A stretch of DNA of 64,000 bases, from contig NZ_CP058601.1 of NCBI RefSeq assembly GCF_013402815.2, positions 372,001-436,000 on the forward strand. Reading direction: 5' to 3'. The notes under the pieces are model-generated. The model searched no databases. It was not told where the DNA came from and saw nothing but the letters and a program-made list of their open reading frames with translations. This document shows positions 2-9,597 of the stretch, piece by piece (positions within the stretch are counted from its first letter, which is position 1; every line of letters starts with the position of its first letter). The stretch is from Natrinema halophilum (GTDB lineage: Archaea; Halobacteriota; Halobacteria; Halobacteriales; Natrialbaceae). A program made the translations under genes and the position numbers.

Positions 2-424
2 GTTATCGGGTGGGTGGCCGTTACCGGAAGCGTCGGGGCACCCGCCATCGGTCTCGCCGCAGTGATTTTCCTGTGGACGCCGGCGCACTTCTACAGCCTC
101 GCGATCGCGTACCGGGAGGACTACGCGCGTGGTGGATTCCCGATGTTTCCTGTCGTCGAAGGCGTCCTTGCTGCCCGTCGACACGTCGCGTTCTATCTGG
201 GGGCGACGCTGCTGTCCGCGAGCGTCCTCGGCTGGCTGGCCGGTCTCGGATGGGTCTATGCGGTCACCTCGATCACGCTCGGCGCCGTCTTCCTCCGATC
301 GGTGATCCGTCAGTACCGCCGACCGACCGACGACGTCGCCCTGCGGTCGTTTTACGTGTCGAATTACTACCTCGGCGCGATACTGGTCGCGATCATCCTC
401 GAGACGCTCGTCGTCGCCGGATAG
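2..424 (+). CDS. ctaB: Heme o synthase (protoheme IX farnesyltransferase), C-terminal part
   Basis: The gene enters from the left edge, so only about 140 C-terminal residues are visible; the frame is open from base 2. CtaB is a multi-spanning UbiA-family membrane enzyme that adds a farnesyl tail to heme b, giving heme o for heme-copper reductases. The signature FLWTPAHFYSLAI followed by DYARGGFPM is the conserved second Asp-rich/loop region of CtaB, and the rest is hydrophobic helices ending with ILETLVVAG. In haloarchaea CtaB is often fused behind a CtaA domain; that cannot be judged here. Its position just upstream of nirK and a heme-copper operon fits a role in cofactor supply. Family call is firm; the start lies outside the window. 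Confidence 0.9.
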   Translation, partial: VIGWVAVTGSVGAPAIGLAAVIFLWTPAHFYSLAIAYREDYARGGFPMFPVVEGVLAARRHVAFYLGATLLSASVLGWLAGLGWVYAVTSITLGAVFLRSVIRQYRRPTDDVALRSFYVSNYYLGAILVAIILETLVVAG

Positions 425-579: not shown

Positions 580-1677
580 ATGACTCAGAATACGACTCAC
601 CGACGGCGGTTTTTGCAGGCGATGGGTGCAGCCGGTGCGGTCGCGGTGGCCGGCTGTCTCGGCGGTGACGAATCGGGCACCGAGGCAAATGGTGATCAGA
701 ACGACGGTGGCGGTGAAGAAGATGGGCTGGCTGCGGCGAAGTCGGTCGACGTCGACCAGATCGCACGCGATCCGACCGACATCCCGGCACCGGTCGACTG
801 GACCCAGCCCCGCACGCACGACGTTACGATTCGGACCGAGAAGGTGACCGCCGAGATCGAACCCGGCGTCACCTTCGACTACATGACCTTCGAGGGGCAG
901 GTTCCGGGGCCGATGCTCCGGGTCCGTCGGGGTGACACGGTCAACCTCACCTTCGACGTCCCCGAGGAGTTGAACGCGGCGATGCACAACATGGACTTCC
1001 ACGCGGTCTACGGGCCGGGTGGCGGTGCCGACGCGACGACGATCGCCCCCGACGACGATCCGACCCAGATCCAGTTCCGCGCGGAGTACCCCGGCGTGTT
1101 CATCTACCACTGTGCGATCCCGAACATGGACATGCACATCAGTAGCGGGATGTTCGGCTCGATCCTGGTCGAGCCCGAAGACGGCCTCCCCGAGGTCGAC
1201 AACGAGTTCTACCTCGGCCAGCACGAAATCTACACCACCGGCGAGGTCGGCGAAGACGGCCACCACGGCTTCGACTACGAGGCGATGAAACGCGAACAGC
1301 CGACCTACGTCGTCTTCAACGGCCAGGCCTACGGCTTTACGGAAGACGCGGCCGGACCCATGCAGGCCAACACGGGCGAAACTGCCCGGGTCTACTTCGC
1401 CAACGGCGGCCCGAACCTGCTGAGTTCGCTCCACCCCATCGGCAACGTCTGGAGCGACCTCTACCGCGACGGTGACCTGCTGTCCGACCCCGCGAACAAC
1501 GTCGAAACGACGCCCGTCGCGCCCGGGACCACCACCGCCGGCGTGATGGAACTCCCCGTCCCCGGCCCGGTCAAAATCGTCGACCACGCGCTCTCGCGGG
1601 TCGTCCACCGCGGGGCACTCGGCGTCGTCGACGTGCAGGGCGAACCTAACCCCGAAGTCTTCGACCCCGATCCGTGA
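580..1677 (+). CDS. nirK: Copper-containing nitrite reductase, Tat lipoprotein
   Basis: Reduces nitrite to nitric oxide outside the membrane, the committing step of denitrification. The 365-residue protein starts with a Tat signal (RRRFLQ) and a lipobox ending at C26, so it is likely exported folded and lipid-anchored. Two cupredoxin domains follow. Type 1 copper ligands are H136, C178, H186 and M191; type 2 copper ligands are H141, H177 and H336; the catalytic Asp and His are D139 and H285. Length and motifs match the NirK family, and no key residue is missing. It sits between ctaB and a heme-copper reductase operon on the same strand, 322 bp before the latter. The ATG at 580 is chosen because it places the Tat motif at residues 8-13. 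Confidence 0.96.
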   Translation: MTQNTTHRRRFLQAMGAAGAVAVAGCLGGDESGTEANGDQNDGGGEEDGLAAAKSVDVDQIARDPTDIPAPVDWTQPRTHDVTIRTEKVTAEIEPGVTFDYMTFEGQVPGPMLRVRRGDTVNLTFDVPEELNAAMHNMDFHAVYGPGGGADATTIAPDDDPTQIQFRAEYPGVFIYHCAIPNMDMHISSGMFGSILVEPEDGLPEVDNEFYLGQHEIYTTGEVGEDGHHGFDYEAMKREQPTYVVFNGQAYGFTEDAAGPMQANTGETARVYFANGGPNLLSSLHPIGNVWSDLYRDGDLLSDPANNVETTPVAPGTTTAGVMELPVPGPVKIVDHALSRVVHRGALGVVDVQGEPNPEVFDPDP

Positions 1678-1999: not shown

Positions 2000-2149
2000 A
2001 TGACCGGGTCTCACTCGAGCGAACCGACACCGACGATGCAACGACTGTACGACCGTATCTGGTTACTGGCGGCGGCGGCGCTCGCGTTCTTCGCGCTCTC
2101 GTACGTCGTCTGGGGCTGGATAGACGTATTTTCCGTTCCACTGGGGTGA
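2000..2149 (+). CDS. Small single-helix subunit of the heme-copper reductase (CbaD-like)
   Basis: A 49-residue protein with a short polar N-terminus and one transmembrane helix (WLLAAAALAFFALSYVVW). It lies 4 bp before the CuA subunit gene, in the place occupied by the small subunit (CbaD, like subunit IIa of Thermus ba3 oxidase) in haloarchaeal ba3 operons. The frame is open from 1949, but the ATG at 2000 gives the compact protein expected of this subunit. Function is inferred from position, size and one helix; the sequence is too short for independent proof. Confidence 0.6.
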   Translation: MTGSHSSEPTPTMQRLYDRIWLLAAAALAFFALSYVVWGWIDVFSVPLG

Positions 2150-2153
2150 TTCG

Positions 2154-2693
2154 ATGACGTCACCGATCAAACCCCCCGACGGAAACTGGTGGAATCAGCC
2201 CGTCAACAGGCGCGAATCGATCTGGCTCGGCCTGGGTGCCGCCTGGTCGCTCGTTCTGTTCGGTTGGATGAGCACCTGGACGCGCATCGGGGATCAGAAC
2301 CCGATCGGGGAGACGCTTCGCGTCGACTCCGACGAGTACCAGCAGAAGATGAGCGAGTACAAGGAGGCGGCGACCGAGACCGAAGACGGACTCGTTCCAC
2401 CGGGAACGGACGTCTACCTCAACGCGATGCGCTTTATGTGGGACGGCGCGCCGGTCGTCCTCGAGACCGGAACGGAGTACGACATCCATCTCAGTTCCCT
2501 CGACGTCCAACACGGCTTCTCGCTGCGGCCGGAGGACGCGCTCAGCAAACAGATCAATCTACAGGTACTGCCGGGCTACGAGTGGGTCGTCCCGATGTCG
2601 TTCGACGAGCCCGGGACCTACCACATCATCTGTAACGAGTTCTGCGGGCAGGGTCACCGGACCATGCACGGGACGATCATCGTGGAGGAGTGA
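2154..2693 (+). CDS. Heme-copper reductase subunit II with CuA centre (CbaB-like)
   Basis: 179 residues: one N-terminal membrane helix (about 24-42), then an exported cupredoxin domain that takes electrons from a soluble donor such as halocyanin and passes them to subunit I. The CuA site is complete: H120, C160, C164, H168 and M171 in DVQHGF and CNEFCGQGHRTM. The start ATG has a GGGGTGA Shine-Dalgarno-like stretch just upstream that overlaps the end of the small subunit gene. Its stop lies 5 bp before the start of subunit I. The closest named family is subunit II of B-type (ba3) oxidases; equivalent CuA subunits also occur in some nitric oxide reductases, which matters because of the unusual subunit I. 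Confidence 0.9.
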   Translation: MTSPIKPPDGNWWNQPVNRRESIWLGLGAAWSLVLFGWMSTWTRIGDQNPIGETLRVDSDEYQQKMSEYKEAATETEDGLVPPGTDVYLNAMRFMWDGAPVVLETGTEYDIHLSSLDVQHGFSLRPEDALSKQINLQVLPGYEWVVPMSFDEPGTYHIICNEFCGQGHRTMHGTIIVEE

Positions 2694-2698
2694 GATAT

Positions 2699-4492
2699 AT
2701 GGCACACAGATTAGACGTTCTCGGTCTATTCGACAACGAGTATCGCGACGACGGGTTCCGGACCTGCTCCGTGACGGGGCTCGAGGTCCACCGGTCCGCC
2801 GAAAACCACGTCAAGCTGTTCGGGCTCACGGCGGTCGTTGCCCTGCTGTACGGTGGCATCCTCGCCATTACCGTCGCGATGACCCGCTGGGAGGTGGTCG
2901 GACTGCTCGGGCCCGAGGCGTTCTACAAGCACCTCAGCCTGCACGCCTGGAACCTGTTGATATTCTGGATGGTATTCATGGAGATCGCAATTCTCTACGT
3001 GGGCGGACCGATGGTGCTCGGCCGCCGCTTACCGTTTACGGCTATCGCGAAGACCGGCTGGCTCGTCATGGCCGTCGGCGCGGTGCTCGTCAACTACTCC
3101 ATCTGGACCACCGAACCGCCGAACGTGGCGCCGCTGCTGACTGCCTACGTCCCCCTGCCCATCGATCCGCTGTTTTACGCGGGCGCGATCGTATTCATCC
3201 TCGGAACCGTCGTCGCGGCGCTGCCGTTCTTCGTGACGATGTGGCAGGAAAAGCAGGATCAGCCGGAGCAGACGCTCCCGCTGGTCAGCTTCGCTGCGTT
3301 CGTCACGGCGATCATCGCCGTCGAAGCACTGGTCGGCGGCCTCGTGGCGTTCACGCCGGCTTTGCTGTGGCGGCTCGAGATCATCGAGTGGTGGGACGCG
3401 GCGTGGTACCGCCAGATGTACTGGATCATCGGCCACGGCACCCAGCAGATCAACCTCGTCGCGATGATCGCGGTCTGGTACTTCCTGACCCACGTCGTCG
3501 CGGGTGCGGAAGTCGTCAGCGAGAAGGTCTCACGGACGGCGTTCATCCTCTATCTGTTCTTCATCAATCTCGGGGCTGCCCACCACCTGCTCTCCGATCC
3601 TGCGGTCTCGACCGGGTGGCGAATCTGGAATACGTCCTACGCGTTCTATGGCGCGACGTTCGCGAGCCTCATCCACGCGTTCGCCATTCCGGCGGGGATC
3701 GAGGCCGGCCGCCGCAAACGCGGCAAGGGCGGCGGCCTGTTCGGCTGGCTCACGTCGGCTCCGTGGTCAAACCCGGTGTTCTCGTCGACGATCTTCTCGA
3801 TCATCCTCTTTGGCTTCCTCGGTGGAACGACCGGCGTCATGATGGGCCAACTGCAACTCAACATGACCTGGCACAACACGTTCGCGACGGTGGGACACTT
3901 CCACGCGACGGTCGTCCTCGGGACCACGGTCGCGTTCATGGGCCTGGTCTTCTTCGTGATCCGGACAATGTTCATGCGCCAGTATATCTCCGAGCGACTC
4001 GCGACGCTCCAGCCGTTCTTCTACTCGGCTGCGATGGGCGTCGCCGTTCTGATGATGATGTACGTCGGTATCCTCTACGGTGTGCCCCGCCGGACGGCCG
4101 AAGTCGTCGAGACCATTCCCGGCACCGAATTCAGCCTCTCGGCCGCGTCGCCGCTGTTCGCCATCTTCGGGATCTTCGCCCTGCTCGCCATCGCGGGTGG
4201 CATTCTCTTCATCCTCCTTGCGGTCGGCTCGCTGCTCTTCGGCGATCGCATCGAGAGCAGCGACAACAACGCCGATCTCGTCGCTGACGGAGGGGGCTCG
4301 GAACGCAGTTCCACAAGTAGCGCGTCTGAGCCGCGAGACAGTCTGGCGATGGCCACGGATCCCGACGATCCCGTCCACGCCTACGAGATGCGCGGCACGT
4401 TCGTCATCTGTCTGGTCTTTCTCGCCGCGTTCGTGATCACCTACCTGTTGAACTGGTACCTGCTAACCCAGCTCTGGTCGATCGGCGCCTGA
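2699..4492 (+). CDS. B-family heme-copper reductase subunit I lacking the active-site Tyr; oxidase or NO reductase
   Basis: 597-residue multi-helix membrane protein aligning along its length with Thermus ba3 subunit I. Heme and copper ligands are present: H82 and H402 for the low-spin heme, H400 for the high-spin heme, H246 and H295-H296 for CuB. The residue four after H246, a Tyr cross-linked to His in O2-reducing B-type enzymes (GHPIVY in Thermus), is Gln here: GHGTQQ, Q250. The K-channel Tyr seven residues further is Ile, while Y261 is retained. The nearest Tyr before the HH pair is Y285, ten residues away. Loss of the Tyr is typical of nitric oxide reductases. ATG 2699 is preferred over GTG 2690 because GGAGG sits 10 nt before it. 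A long acidic, Ser-rich loop separates the last helix. Confidence 0.85.
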   Translation: MAHRLDVLGLFDNEYRDDGFRTCSVTGLEVHRSAENHVKLFGLTAVVALLYGGILAITVAMTRWEVVGLLGPEAFYKHLSLHAWNLLIFWMVFMEIAILYVGGPMVLGRRLPFTAIAKTGWLVMAVGAVLVNYSIWTTEPPNVAPLLTAYVPLPIDPLFYAGAIVFILGTVVAALPFFVTMWQEKQDQPEQTLPLVSFAAFVTAIIAVEALVGGLVAFTPALLWRLEIIEWWDAAWYRQMYWIIGHGTQQINLVAMIAVWYFLTHVVAGAEVVSEKVSRTAFILYLFFINLGAAHHLLSDPAVSTGWRIWNTSYAFYGATFASLIHAFAIPAGIEAGRRKRGKGGGLFGWLTSAPWSNPVFSSTIFSIILFGFLGGTTGVMMGQLQLNMTWHNTFATVGHFHATVVLGTTVAFMGLVFFVIRTMFMRQYISERLATLQPFFYSAAMGVAVLMMMYVGILYGVPRRTAEVVETIPGTEFSLSAASPLFAIFGIFALLAIAGGILFILLAVGSLLFGDRIESSDNNADLVADGGGSERSSTSSASEPRDSLAMATDPDDPVHAYEMRGTFVICLVFLAAFVITYLLNWYLLTQLWSIGA

Positions 4493-4529: not shown

Positions 4530-5249
4530 ATGACATCCACCGACGCCAACGCGACCGCATCGCCCCTCGAGCTCGTCCGGCGAACCCTCGGCCAGGCCTG
4601 GCGAGACCTCCTGAGCATCTACTACACTAACACGCCGATCTGGCGGCTCCTCAAGAGCGTCGGGCTCCTCTTCTTCGGGTTCTTCTGCTGGTCAGCGAGC
4701 AGCCTGCTGCTCTCCTACGGCGTCGACTGGACAGTGCTCACGTACACGCGCGCCTACGGCTTCGTCCTCATCCTCTGGGGTCCGTTGACCCACGCCGTGG
4801 TCGTTCCGTTCGTGATTCGACTCCGGCGAACCGCCGATCGTCCGATCTTTCGGTCGGTCGCTCGCCATGGCTCGAAAATCAACCTCTCGGTCTTCCTGAC
4901 CCTCGTTTTGATACTCGGGACTGCACCCGTCTCGCCCATGCTCCTGGACTTCCAGTCGTCGTTACAGAACGGCTCCGGGTCGGACGTCAACCCTGACCTG
5001 GTGTGTAGTAAATCCGACGGTGAGATCACCTGCCAGCTTTCCGACTCCGACGGAATAGACGCCGTCGTAGTGACCAGTGGCGGTCGCGAAATCGAGCGTC
5101 TCGAGGGTCCTCCGTTCGAATTCACGATCCGCGAGGACGACCTGGAAGAGGTGGTCGGACAGAAGGAATTCGTCGTGGAACTCCGCGACGCGGACGCACG
5201 CACCTTGCGGCGATACCGCCGGTACGTCTCGTCCGTCCCCGAACGCTAG
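4530..5249 (+). CDS. Membrane protein of unknown function, downstream of the reductase operon
   Basis: 239 residues. Three or four hydrophobic helices fall in residues 35-150 (LLFFGFFCWSASSLLLSYGV and later segments), followed by a soluble C-terminal domain of about 90 residues with two Cys (VCSKSDGEITC) and a DGIDAVVVTSGG stretch that resembles an extracytoplasmic beta-domain. It starts 37 bp after subunit I on the same strand, so co-transcription is likely. It is not SCO/SenC (no CxxxC-His copper site). A structural or assembly role for the neighbouring enzyme is a guess from position only. Confidence 0.6.
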   Translation: MTSTDANATASPLELVRRTLGQAWRDLLSIYYTNTPIWRLLKSVGLLFFGFFCWSASSLLLSYGVDWTVLTYTRAYGFVLILWGPLTHAVVVPFVIRLRRTADRPIFRSVARHGSKINLSVFLTLVLILGTAPVSPMLLDFQSSLQNGSGSDVNPDLVCSKSDGEITCQLSDSDGIDAVVVTSGGREIERLEGPPFEFTIREDDLEEVVGQKEFVVELRDADARTLRRYRRYVSSVPER

Positions 5250-6030: not shown

Positions 6031-6810
6031 TTAATATCCCTGGTCGTTTTCGAACTCGTACCGCCGTGCCGCCTTCTGTAGCGCCTTTTTACGGCGTTTC
6101 TTGTTCTCGCCGTTCATCTCTTTTCGCTCTTCCTCGATCGCCCACTCCGTGATGAGTTCTTTCGCTTTTTTTTCGACTTCCCGTTCGCGCCGTTGTTCCC
6201 GAAGAGAGACGATCAGACCGTAGCAGGATGCGCTGACTCCGACCAAAAGCACGAGAATGAAGCCCTTTCCCATCTGCGATTGTCCCAGATACCAATGCCA
6301 ACCGACGAAAACGGCGGTAAGTAGATATCTCGCGACTGCGATGAACGCCACGACGCCCACCGAAACCTGCCCACAGAATGACGTCAGGATTGTCATGTAC
6401 TCTTCGTTTTCGGTGACGAGCGGTGTCAAGTGCGCTAGCGTCGTCAGGAACACCCCGCAGACGAGTAAGATATATGCAGGGTATTGATCGAACAGAACCA
6501 TTTCAGTCGATCTAACAGATATGACGGTATACGTAGAAAAGGCCCCAAACAGGAACCAGCTCGTATCGGACGTGAGATCCTTTATCGAGGAGCCGAGATA
6601 ATAGCCCGTCCCGAGTCCGATTGCGGACATCTTGATGGAAAGAACGATCGTCCCGGAGACGTCCACCAGTTCGGCAGACTGACCGATAGCACCACCGAGT
6701 AAGGCCAGAAAGAACACGAACAAAACGCCCAATAGAAATGCCGTCGTCGGATCGTACCACCGGTGGTTCTGAATCCGCTGTGCTGTCACTTTCCCCCCCT
6801 TGTTTGCCAT
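6031..6810 (-). CDS. Multi-spanning membrane protein with charged cytoplasmic tail, unknown function
   Basis: 259 residues from the ATG at 6810, chosen because a TATA-like box sits 27-33 bp upstream, as for a leaderless gene. Six or so hydrophobic segments occupy residues 20-195 (for example AFLLGVLFVFFLALLGGAIG and ILVLLVGVSASCYGLIVSL). A basic/acidic tail from about 200 (REQRREREVEKKAKELITEW, then ERKEMNGENKKRRKK) is probably a cytoplasmic helix. The composition is less GC-rich and less acidic than its neighbours, hinting at acquired DNA. I do not recognise the family. Confidence 0.65.
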   Translation of the reverse strand: MANKGGKVTAQRIQNHRWYDPTTAFLLGVLFVFFLALLGGAIGQSAELVDVSGTIVLSIKMSAIGLGTGYYLGSSIKDLTSDTSWFLFGAFSTYTVISVRSTEMVLFDQYPAYILLVCGVFLTTLAHLTPLVTENEEYMTILTSFCGQVSVGVVAFIAVARYLLTAVFVGWHWYLGQSQMGKGFILVLLVGVSASCYGLIVSLREQRREREVEKKAKELITEWAIEEERKEMNGENKKRRKKALQKAARRYEFENDQGY

Positions 6811-6836
6811 AGCCACCCTAAGATTATGGCCCCTCG

Positions 6837-6843
6837 TATATAT
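6837..6843 (-). promoter_or_regulatory. TATA box for the 6810 gene
   Basis: ATATATA on the minus strand inside an AT-rich patch, 27-33 bp before the ATG at 6810. The spacing fits a leaderless transcript, the usual form in haloarchaea. Confidence 0.55.
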
Positions 6844-7007
6844 TATTAATGAAGTCAACTTTCATTAATTATTGCCCTATCTCGGAATCTGTTACTCAAA
6901 CTATACACGTATTATGCGTTATCGGTCGTGGGCAGAAAATGGCGTTTGGATCACCGCTCGTCCGTGGTAATTGGGGCCAAACCACTCTCGGACAGATTCG
7001 GCGCGAG

Positions 7008-9455
7008 TCACCGTTCGTCGACGAGCACCGACCGTGTGGAGTTGAGCACGACGATAGTACTACTTGCGGCCATCGCGACCGCTGCGAACAGCGGATTAAG
7101 GAGCCCGAGCGCCGCCAGGGGGATCGCGACGGCGTTGTATACCAGCGCCCAGGCAACGTTTTCGCGGATTCGTCGCCGCGTCCCGTCTGCGAGATCGAAC
7201 ACGGAATGGACGGCACGGAGGTCGCTCGAGGCGACCACTGCGTCGGCGGCATCGGTCGCGCGGGCCGTTCCGTGGCCGAGCGCGATCCCGACGTCAGCCT
7301 CGGCCAGGGCGGGCGCGTCGTTCGTTCCGTCGCCGACCATTGCGGTCACGCCCTCGCGTGCGAGGCGTCGGACGGTCTCGACTTTTCCATCCGGCGGAAC
7401 GCCGGCGAAGACCCGATCGACCGCAGGGCTCCGGGTAACGGTCGCGGTCGCAGTCGCGTCGTCACCCGTCAGTACGACGACTTCGCAGTCGGCGAACGCA
7501 TCGAGTGCGTCGCGCCACTCGGCCCGCATCCGATCGCCGACGACGATGATCGCTCTCGCTCGGCCGCCGTATCCGACCACGGCCGGGAGTCGGCACTCCG
7601 CGCGGGCCTCGTCGATCGCCGTCGCGAGGTCGCCGGGGATCGGACCGACGAGTCGCTCGACGAGCGCCGGCGTCCCGACGACGACGCGTTCGCCGTCGAC
7701 GGTCGCGCTCACACCCTCGCCGGGGTGTCGCTCGAAGTTCGTCGTCTCGAGTGACGATTGCGAGATATTGCCGTCCGCGTCCGGATCACGCCAGCCGCCG
7801 TCGGGGGTGAAATCGTCACCACAGTCCGGTGACGTTTCGAGGTCGGTTTCCGCGCAGGCAACGATGGCGTCGGCGACCGGATGCTCCGAGCGACGTTCGA
7901 CGGCTGCCGCAGGCTGGAGCGCGCTGGACTCGCCGTGGATCTCTACTACGGTCATTTCGCCGGCCGTCAGCGTCCCGGTTTTGTCGAAGACGATCGTCTC
8001 GACAGCCAGCGCCGATTCGAACAGCGTCTCGTTTGCGACGGTGATGCCGCGCTCTAAAGCGTCGCGCAGCCCGGACGTGACCGCAAGCGGCGTCGCCAGC
8101 CCCATCGCGCAGGGACAGGAGACGACGAGTACCGTCAATCCAGTGAGGACGGCATCGCCGGCCGGCGTCCCCGTTGCGAACCGCCATCCCGTCACGACGA
8201 CCGCGAGCGTCAAGACGAGCGGGACGAAGATGGTCGCGAGGCGGTCGGCGAGACGCTGCACTCCCGGCGTCGAGCTCTGGATCTCCCACATGACCGCGGC
8301 GATTCGATCGAGCGTACTCGCCGCGTCTTCGCCCACCTCGAGGACGAGCGCGCTATCCGTCACGATCGCTCCGCCGACGACCGTTTCACCCGAGCCTTTC
8401 GTCACCGGCAGGGATTCCCCGGTGAGGACGGACTCGTCGACAGCGGCCGTCCCTTCTACGACCGTGCCGTCGACGGGGATTCGCTCGCCCGGTCTGACGA
8501 CGACTTCGTCACCCGCCTCGAGTCGATCCACCGGCATCGTCTCGGTCCCCTTTTCGGTTCGGCGGGTCGCGTTCCGGACCTGCGCGGCGGTCACGTCCGT
8601 GAGCAGATCGGTCGCTCGGCGCTTGATCCGGCGCTCGTAGTACGTTCCGAGGCTGACGACCATGATCACTGCGACTGTCACGTCGTAGTAGAGGTGCGTA
8701 CTCCCCATCGCCAGTGCGACCGTACTGTAGGCGTAGGCGGCGACCGCCGCGATGGCGATCAGGAGATCCATGTTCGGCTGCCTGACCAGCAGGCTGACGT
8801 ACGCACCGCGGAGGATTGGATACCCCGTATAAAACAACACGCCGCCCGTCAACACCCCAATCATCGCGAGCGGGAGATACATCCCGACGGACGAGGTTGC
8901 GTCGACAGTGAGAATCCCCGTCTCGATCCCGACGTAGCTCGGGTAGAGATAGAAGAGGTACCACGGCATGACCAACATCGCCAGAAACCCGCCGACCAAC
9001 AACCGCTGGACCAGTTCCTCGTCGGCTCCCGGGTTCCCTTCCGCCGCCTCACCGTCGCGGAATCCCGCCTCGTAGCCGTAGCCCGAAAGCGCCTCCGGGA
9101 CGTCGGCTCTGTCCAGTCGGTCCGGATCGTAGACGACTCGAACGGTATCGGTTGCGTAACTGGCTTCGACGGCCAGGATTCCCGCCGCACGTTCGCCCAG
9201 CAGGGAGACGAACCCTTCGCAGGTCGAACAGTGCATCCCCTCGATCGCGAGGAAGATTTCGGCTGCATCATCGGGAATCTTGCGCTCGACGGACTCGGTC
9301 GCCCGGTCGACGACACTCGAGCGGTCGACGCCGTCGACGTCGTCGAGCGTCGCGCTCACTTCGAGACAGCCGCGACAGCAAAACCGCCCCTCGATGCCGT
9401 CCGCAGTCAGCGGCTGCTCGGGCGTCGGGAGACCGCAGAGCGAACAGGTACTCAT
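7008..9455 (-). CDS. Copper-transporting P1B-type ATPase, CcoI/FixI-like
   Basis: 815 residues. The N-terminus carries a Cys-rich metal-binding module (CSLCG at 4-8 and FCCRGC at 25-30) and a heavy-metal-associated domain with GMHCSTC (C76, C79). The ATPase core has the metal-selective CPC in helix 6 (C447, C449), DKTGTL with phosphorylated D491, TGES, and [10 protein letters not shown]. The double Cys-rich N-terminus is characteristic of CcoI/FixI/CopA2 pumps, which export copper for insertion into heme-copper enzymes rather than for detoxification. That fits the NirK and CuA proteins 3-7 kb away, though it is on the opposite strand. ATG 9455 (MSTCSLCG) was chosen because it starts directly at the metal module; the frame is open further upstream. 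Confidence 0.88.
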
Positions 9456-9597
9456 CTCACGCTCGCATTCACGGACGCGGCCGGTAGCCGTGACCCCGAA
9501 CACGTTCACGTCGGCCGGCGGCCACCGGATCGAGCAGTCGCGGCGATCGGTGGCCCGAACCGTACTGGCAGTCGAGTCTATCGGCGGGACCCGTCCG

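Follow-up and report, generated by a model that had tools for sequence, protein, structure and literature searches.

Is the heme-copper enzyme encoded next to a copper nitrite reductase in the haloarchaeon Natrinema halophilum an oxygen reductase, or does it reduce nitric oxide? The gene lies in a stretch of 64,000 nucleotides (assembly GCF_013402815.2, contig NZ_CP058601.1, 372,001-436,000, forward strand), which is called the window throughout, and all coordinates are window positions unless a locus is named. An initial annotation had proposed a CuA-type NO reductase which pipelines would call cytochrome oxidase, and homologues are indeed annotated as "cbb3-type" or "b(o/a)3-type" oxidases. 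The genes and sites are listed in Table 1.

Table 1. Features of the nirK-eNOR region in window positions.
Feature	Position	Strand	Evidence
3' end of CtaA-CtaB fusion (heme A/O synthase), upstream of nirK	2..424	+	
nirK, copper nitrite reductase, Tat-type lipoprotein signal	580..1677	+	TIGR02376, PDB 1kbv
49-aa one-helix peptide, candidate small eNOR subunit	2000..2149	+	profile matches in eNOR loci
eNOR subunit II, one helix and CuA cupredoxin domain	2154..2693	+	1ehk_B, E 2.5e-17
eNOR subunit I, 597 aa, heme-copper catalytic subunit	2699..4492	+	PF00115 175.7 bits, ligands, signature, tree
CAG codon of Q250, position of Thermus ba3 Tyr237	3446..3448	+	sequence, alignment
239-aa membrane protein, C-terminal fibronectin/Ig-like domain, invariant Cys pair	4530..5249	+	eNOR co-occurrence, alignment, model
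Heavy-metal (probably copper) P-type ATPase, conserved neighbour	7008..9575	-	PF00122, HMA PF00403

The heme-CuB site and the proton channel

Subunit I was numbered from the ATG at 2699, which is the likelier start, the GTG at 2690 overlapping subunit II. Its resemblance to Thermus ba3 along the length of the protein was confirmed, as subunit I of that enzyme (1ehk_A and others) aligns over about 460 residues with an E of about 1e-31. All six His ligands of the hemes and CuB given in the initial annotation (H82, H246, H295, H296, H400, H402) were reproduced with this numbering, and the cross-linking Tyr of the oxidases (Tyr237 in Thermus ba3) is replaced by Q250 in both the sequence and the alignment. 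The cross-linking Tyr of cbb3 oxidases, which lies six residues before the His pair, has no counterpart in the window protein either, as this position is occupied by I289. Three identities were considered and rejected: O2-reducing ba3, because the fourth residue after the first CuB His is not a cross-linkable Tyr; cbb3 oxidase, because of the Ile at the next-helix position; and cNOR/qNOR, because the site has Gln and not the Glu of HxxxE, and because the closest solved relatives are ba3 subunits and not NorB. Pfam and NCBIfam searches with subunit I return COX1 or a weak CtaD match, and neither of the two eNOR subunits is named by curated NCBIfam models.

Subunit II, which is encoded immediately upstream, aligns with Thermus subunit II with the CuA motif H..CxxxCxxxHxxM kept. 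Its E21 corresponds to Thermus E15, the Glu at the channel entrance.

The initial annotation had further noted that the K-channel Tyr seven residues after the Gln is Ile, and had spoken of a weakened proton channel. This is only half right. The position of Thermus Y244 is indeed I257 in the window protein and Ile or Val in eNORs generally, but Y248 is kept as Y261, S309 as S323 and the Glu of subunit II as well, while T312 has become an invariant His (H326). Q249, Q250, N252, Y261, S323 and H326 are invariant in all 103 eNORs compared. At the position of T315 haloarchaeal eNORs have Ala and bacterial ones Thr or Ser. Ten residues ahead of the CuB His pair, where ba3 has Phe, eNORs have a Tyr (Y285) with 98% conservation. 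To judge from these conserved polar residues the channel appears to be remodelled and not lost, which fits the single proton channel predicted for eNOR in table A4 of PMC8756737. Y261, the Glu of subunit II, the His at the T312 position and the downstream 239-aa gene as part of the unit are features which the initial annotation had not recognised.

Assignment to the eNOR family

Searching 391 Halobacteria genomes reveals two well separated groups of relatives. Matches with 60-91% identity occur in 72 genomes, many genomes have matches of about 30% identity which are ba3 oxidases, and a wide gap lies between them. The motif H[GS][TS]QQ is kept in 32 out of 32 haloarchaeal homologues examined from the first group (60-91% identical), whereas all seven aligned ba3 paralogues (about 30% identical) have Tyr at the site. 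Therefore the Gln is not a chance substitution. Among bacterial relatives found from similarity alone, the corresponding GHxxQQ is present in Thermus, Thermomicrobium and Defluviimonas proteins (36-42%). A wider scan, seeded partly on the Gln motif, gave more than 500 relatives, and the best 80 of these, all bacterial, were kept. Gln occupies the Tyr site in 103 out of 103 relatives compared, part of the bacterial set having been gathered with a motif that contains this Gln.

In a maximum-likelihood tree of Gln enzymes and ba3 oxidases the Gln enzymes of haloarchaea and bacteria fall together in a single clade (100/99) and ba3 in another (99/95), so that the window protein groups outside the O2-reducing ba3 enzymes; sNOR, gNOR, nNOR and bNOR were compared by the published residue table only. 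The eNOR family is reportedly that of Hemp and Gennis 2008 and Murali 2024. Gln at the Tyr site together with a CuA subunit II is diagnostic for eNOR according to PMC8756737, which also reports the enzyme from Natronomonas and "throughout other Halobacteria". In PMC11388526 eNOR is counted among the biochemically characterised NO reductases and related to the B-family.

Based on the Gln, the CuA subunit II, the clade shared with bacterial Gln enzymes and the published definition we assign the window operon to eNOR. That it encodes this B-family-derived, CuA-containing NO reductase is the best explanation and in our view highly probable, with NO reduction as the activity expected from the family. 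With the known eNORs it shares the B-family-derived subunit I, Gln in place of Tyr, the CuA subunit directly upstream, the association with NirK and a common clade with the bacterial relatives. With ba3 (Thermus 1ehk and the haloarchaeal proteins in loci L005/L076) it has in common the fold, the heme and CuB ligands, the CuA subunit II and the Y248, S309 and E15 positions; it differs in the three exchanges Y237 to Q250, Y244 to I257 and T312 to H326, in an identity of about 30% and in the separate clade.

The initial annotation had compared the enzyme with NorSY/sNOR. Our analysis supports an NO reductase of CuA type beside NirK, but not the kinship to sNOR. Both are B-family NO reductases of CuA type without the Tyr, and sNOR (NorSY) as well as bNOR (CuANOR) have lost this residue. 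However, table A4 of PMC8756737 gives Asn for these two and Asp for gNOR, and the window gene groups with the Gln enzymes, which makes an sNOR-type enzyme extremely improbable. The enzyme is thus a member of a named, known NO reductase family and not an sNOR-like novelty.

Homologues of eNOR encoded on Thermus thermophilus plasmids carry GHFK (AAG) instead of GHFH in four out of four records (L078 6983-8668; L169-L171). Here the axial His of the low-spin heme is Lys, all other ligands being kept, and the enzyme could be inactive or altered.

NirK, the second NO reductase and the role of the enzyme

The upstream gene encodes a genuine NirK, as had been assumed: it scores 365.6 bits against a TIGR02376 cut-off of 296.3 and matches 1kbv with E 1e-74, the copper ligands and the catalytic Asp and His being aligned. 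As had been noted, 322 bp separate its end from the first eNOR gene. This gap contains inverted repeats and a T6 run, so that co-transcription of nirK and eNOR is uncertain. The proposed nitrite-to-N2O module is therefore supported by co-occurrence and synteny and not as a single transcript. NirK is found in 68 of the 72 eNOR genomes (in four it was not detected) versus 146 of 319 without eNOR (p 7e-16); these tests were made at the genome level and kinship was handled solely by collapse to genera, which gives 25 of 26 genera with eNOR versus 28 of 60 without (p 6e-6).

In sister genomes a plastocyanin-like protein, SCO1, a thioredoxin-like protein and a CcdA-like membrane protein (a call made by eye, with no Pfam match) are encoded between nirK and eNOR, and the gene after the cluster codes for either a DsbD_2-type protein or a copper-type ATPase. 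The window locus does not have these intervening genes for copper-centre assembly. A P-type ATPase neighbour is seen in 17 of 32 haloarchaeal eNOR loci. The Thermus relatives adjoin nirS, a nirK-like gene, Rrf2 and DUF542 genes, and PMC7694296 speculates that those Thermus genes use NO. For Ardenticatena an eNOR-NirK operon has been published (PMC4653789).

The complete CtaA-CtaB gene (L074 8977-10425) matches UbiA (PF01040, 186 bits) and COX15-CtaA (PF02628, 32 bits). Upstream of this fusion and nirK are genes for an HTH_10 (Bat-like) regulator and a DUF2249 protein (L074 7126-7797, 8538-8798), possibly regulators or NO-related proteins. In several haloarchaeal families (L055, L058-L060, L062, L063) the genes for eNOR subunit I and the 239-aa companion are separated by one for heme O synthase, a hint that eNOR contains heme O or A.

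Seven genes for heme-copper subunits I are present in the genome: four of A-type (L001-L004), one Tyr-bearing ba3 (L005/L076), eNOR and qNor. The latter (C1:2679884-2682196) matches PDB 3ayf with E 1e-181, whereas neither NosZ nor NarG was found over cut-off. Another qNor in the genome was one half of what the initial annotation had named as speaking against its reading. Because of this separate qNor, eNOR is not the sole NO reductase of the organism and need not be its main NO sink. Haloarchaeal qNor (NorZ) likewise reduces NO and belongs to the same superfamily, but it is related to the C-family, consists of a single fused chain with the HxxxE motif and has no CuA.

Could the enzyme nevertheless be a high-affinity O2 reductase which works without the cross-linked Tyr in low-oxygen respiration? 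The B-family fold, the full set of ligands, the CuA subunit and the retained channel residues would suit such an enzyme. We consider it very unlikely, since none of the 103 relatives has the Tyr or a replacement of cbb3 type, a Tyr-bearing ba3 is encoded in the same genome, the link to NirK is tight, and eNOR has, according to PMC11388526, been characterised as an NO reductase.

A different role for the same eNOR, namely the removal of toxic NO under microoxic conditions instead of energy-conserving nitrite respiration, is possible though not the reading we favour. It would agree with the lack of NarG and NosZ matches and with the qNor already present, and eNOR functions under microoxic conditions according to PMC11388526. 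On the other hand, both subunits I and II keep residues of channel type, which points to an electrogenic enzyme.

Taking the ligands, the substitution, the clade, the conserved parts and the gene inventory as read from the sequences, we infer substrate, electron donor, proton path and the roles of the small proteins of this eNOR as follows. On the outer side of the membrane NirK would reduce nitrite to NO. The CuA centre of subunit II would take up electrons, probably from a halocyanin, and these would pass via the low-spin heme (H82, H402) to the site formed by the high-spin heme (H400) and CuB (H246, H295, H296), where two NO would be converted to N2O and water; lacking the redox Tyr, this site would not be suited to normal O2 splitting. 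The protons would probably come from the cytoplasm through the remodelled K-type channel along E21 of subunit II and S323, H326, Y261, Q250 and possibly Y285 of subunit I. Beside eNOR, qNor would act as a second NO sink. The two small proteins, of 49 and 239 aa, probably either belong to the enzyme as accessory subunits or help to assemble it.

Companion proteins and haloarchaeal NO reduction

The 49-aa peptide, a single helix encoded just upstream of subunit II, has profile matches in 32 of 32 haloarchaeal and in 79 of 83 bacterial eNOR loci. The 239-aa protein encoded downstream of subunit I, with several predicted helices and the invariant Cys pair, is distributed differently. It accompanies eNOR in 71 of the 72 haloarchaeal genomes, and the one genome without it (G034) has a contig that breaks off within subunit I. 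Four genomes (G208, G313, G371, G387) have two eNORs and two copies of the companion each. A companion without eNOR occurs in three genomes only, each time as a truncated remnant; in G281 (L172, about 6239-6855) a deletion has removed subunit I and left a scar in which the first 73 residues of subunit II run on into the companion at its residues 107-238. No significant match was found in the 83 bacterial eNOR loci, which sets the haloarchaeal enzyme apart from the bacterial one, nor in the plasmids searched. The protein belongs to no Pfam or NCBIfam family, and a partial literature search found no published description. In a structure model built from one sequence the C-terminal domain alone is confident (pLDDT 86-94), and a fold search with this model gives generic fibronectin/Ig-like matches.

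Because of the co-occurrence, the remnants and the lack of a bacterial match, the most suitable reading of the 239-aa protein is that of an eNOR subunit or assembly factor specific to haloarchaea. Somewhat more speculatively, but still with the balance in its favour, we suggest that haloarchaeal eNOR is a larger complex than so far described, with the 239-aa protein as an obligate extra subunit or a dedicated assembly factor and the 49-aa peptide as a subunit common to all eNORs, and that it replaced qNor after NirK in some haloarchaea.

Surveys of haloarchaeal denitrification treat qNor as the sole NO reductase of the class (PMC8400030, PMC8301774). As eNOR is present in 72 out of 391 genomes, this view needs correction. 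No qNor match, absence being scored at E 1e-100, was obtained for 26 of the 72 eNOR genomes, 25 of which have NirK, and therefore some species scored as stopping at NO probably make N2O. For the window organism itself N2O is the predicted product, as NirK and qNor are present and NosZ was not detected, and it is predicted to release this greenhouse gas. What deserves a specialist's attention is the accessory protein that is always present, the 49-aa peptide and the correction of the surveys; the constant companion provides a direct handle on how the archaeal eNOR is constructed.
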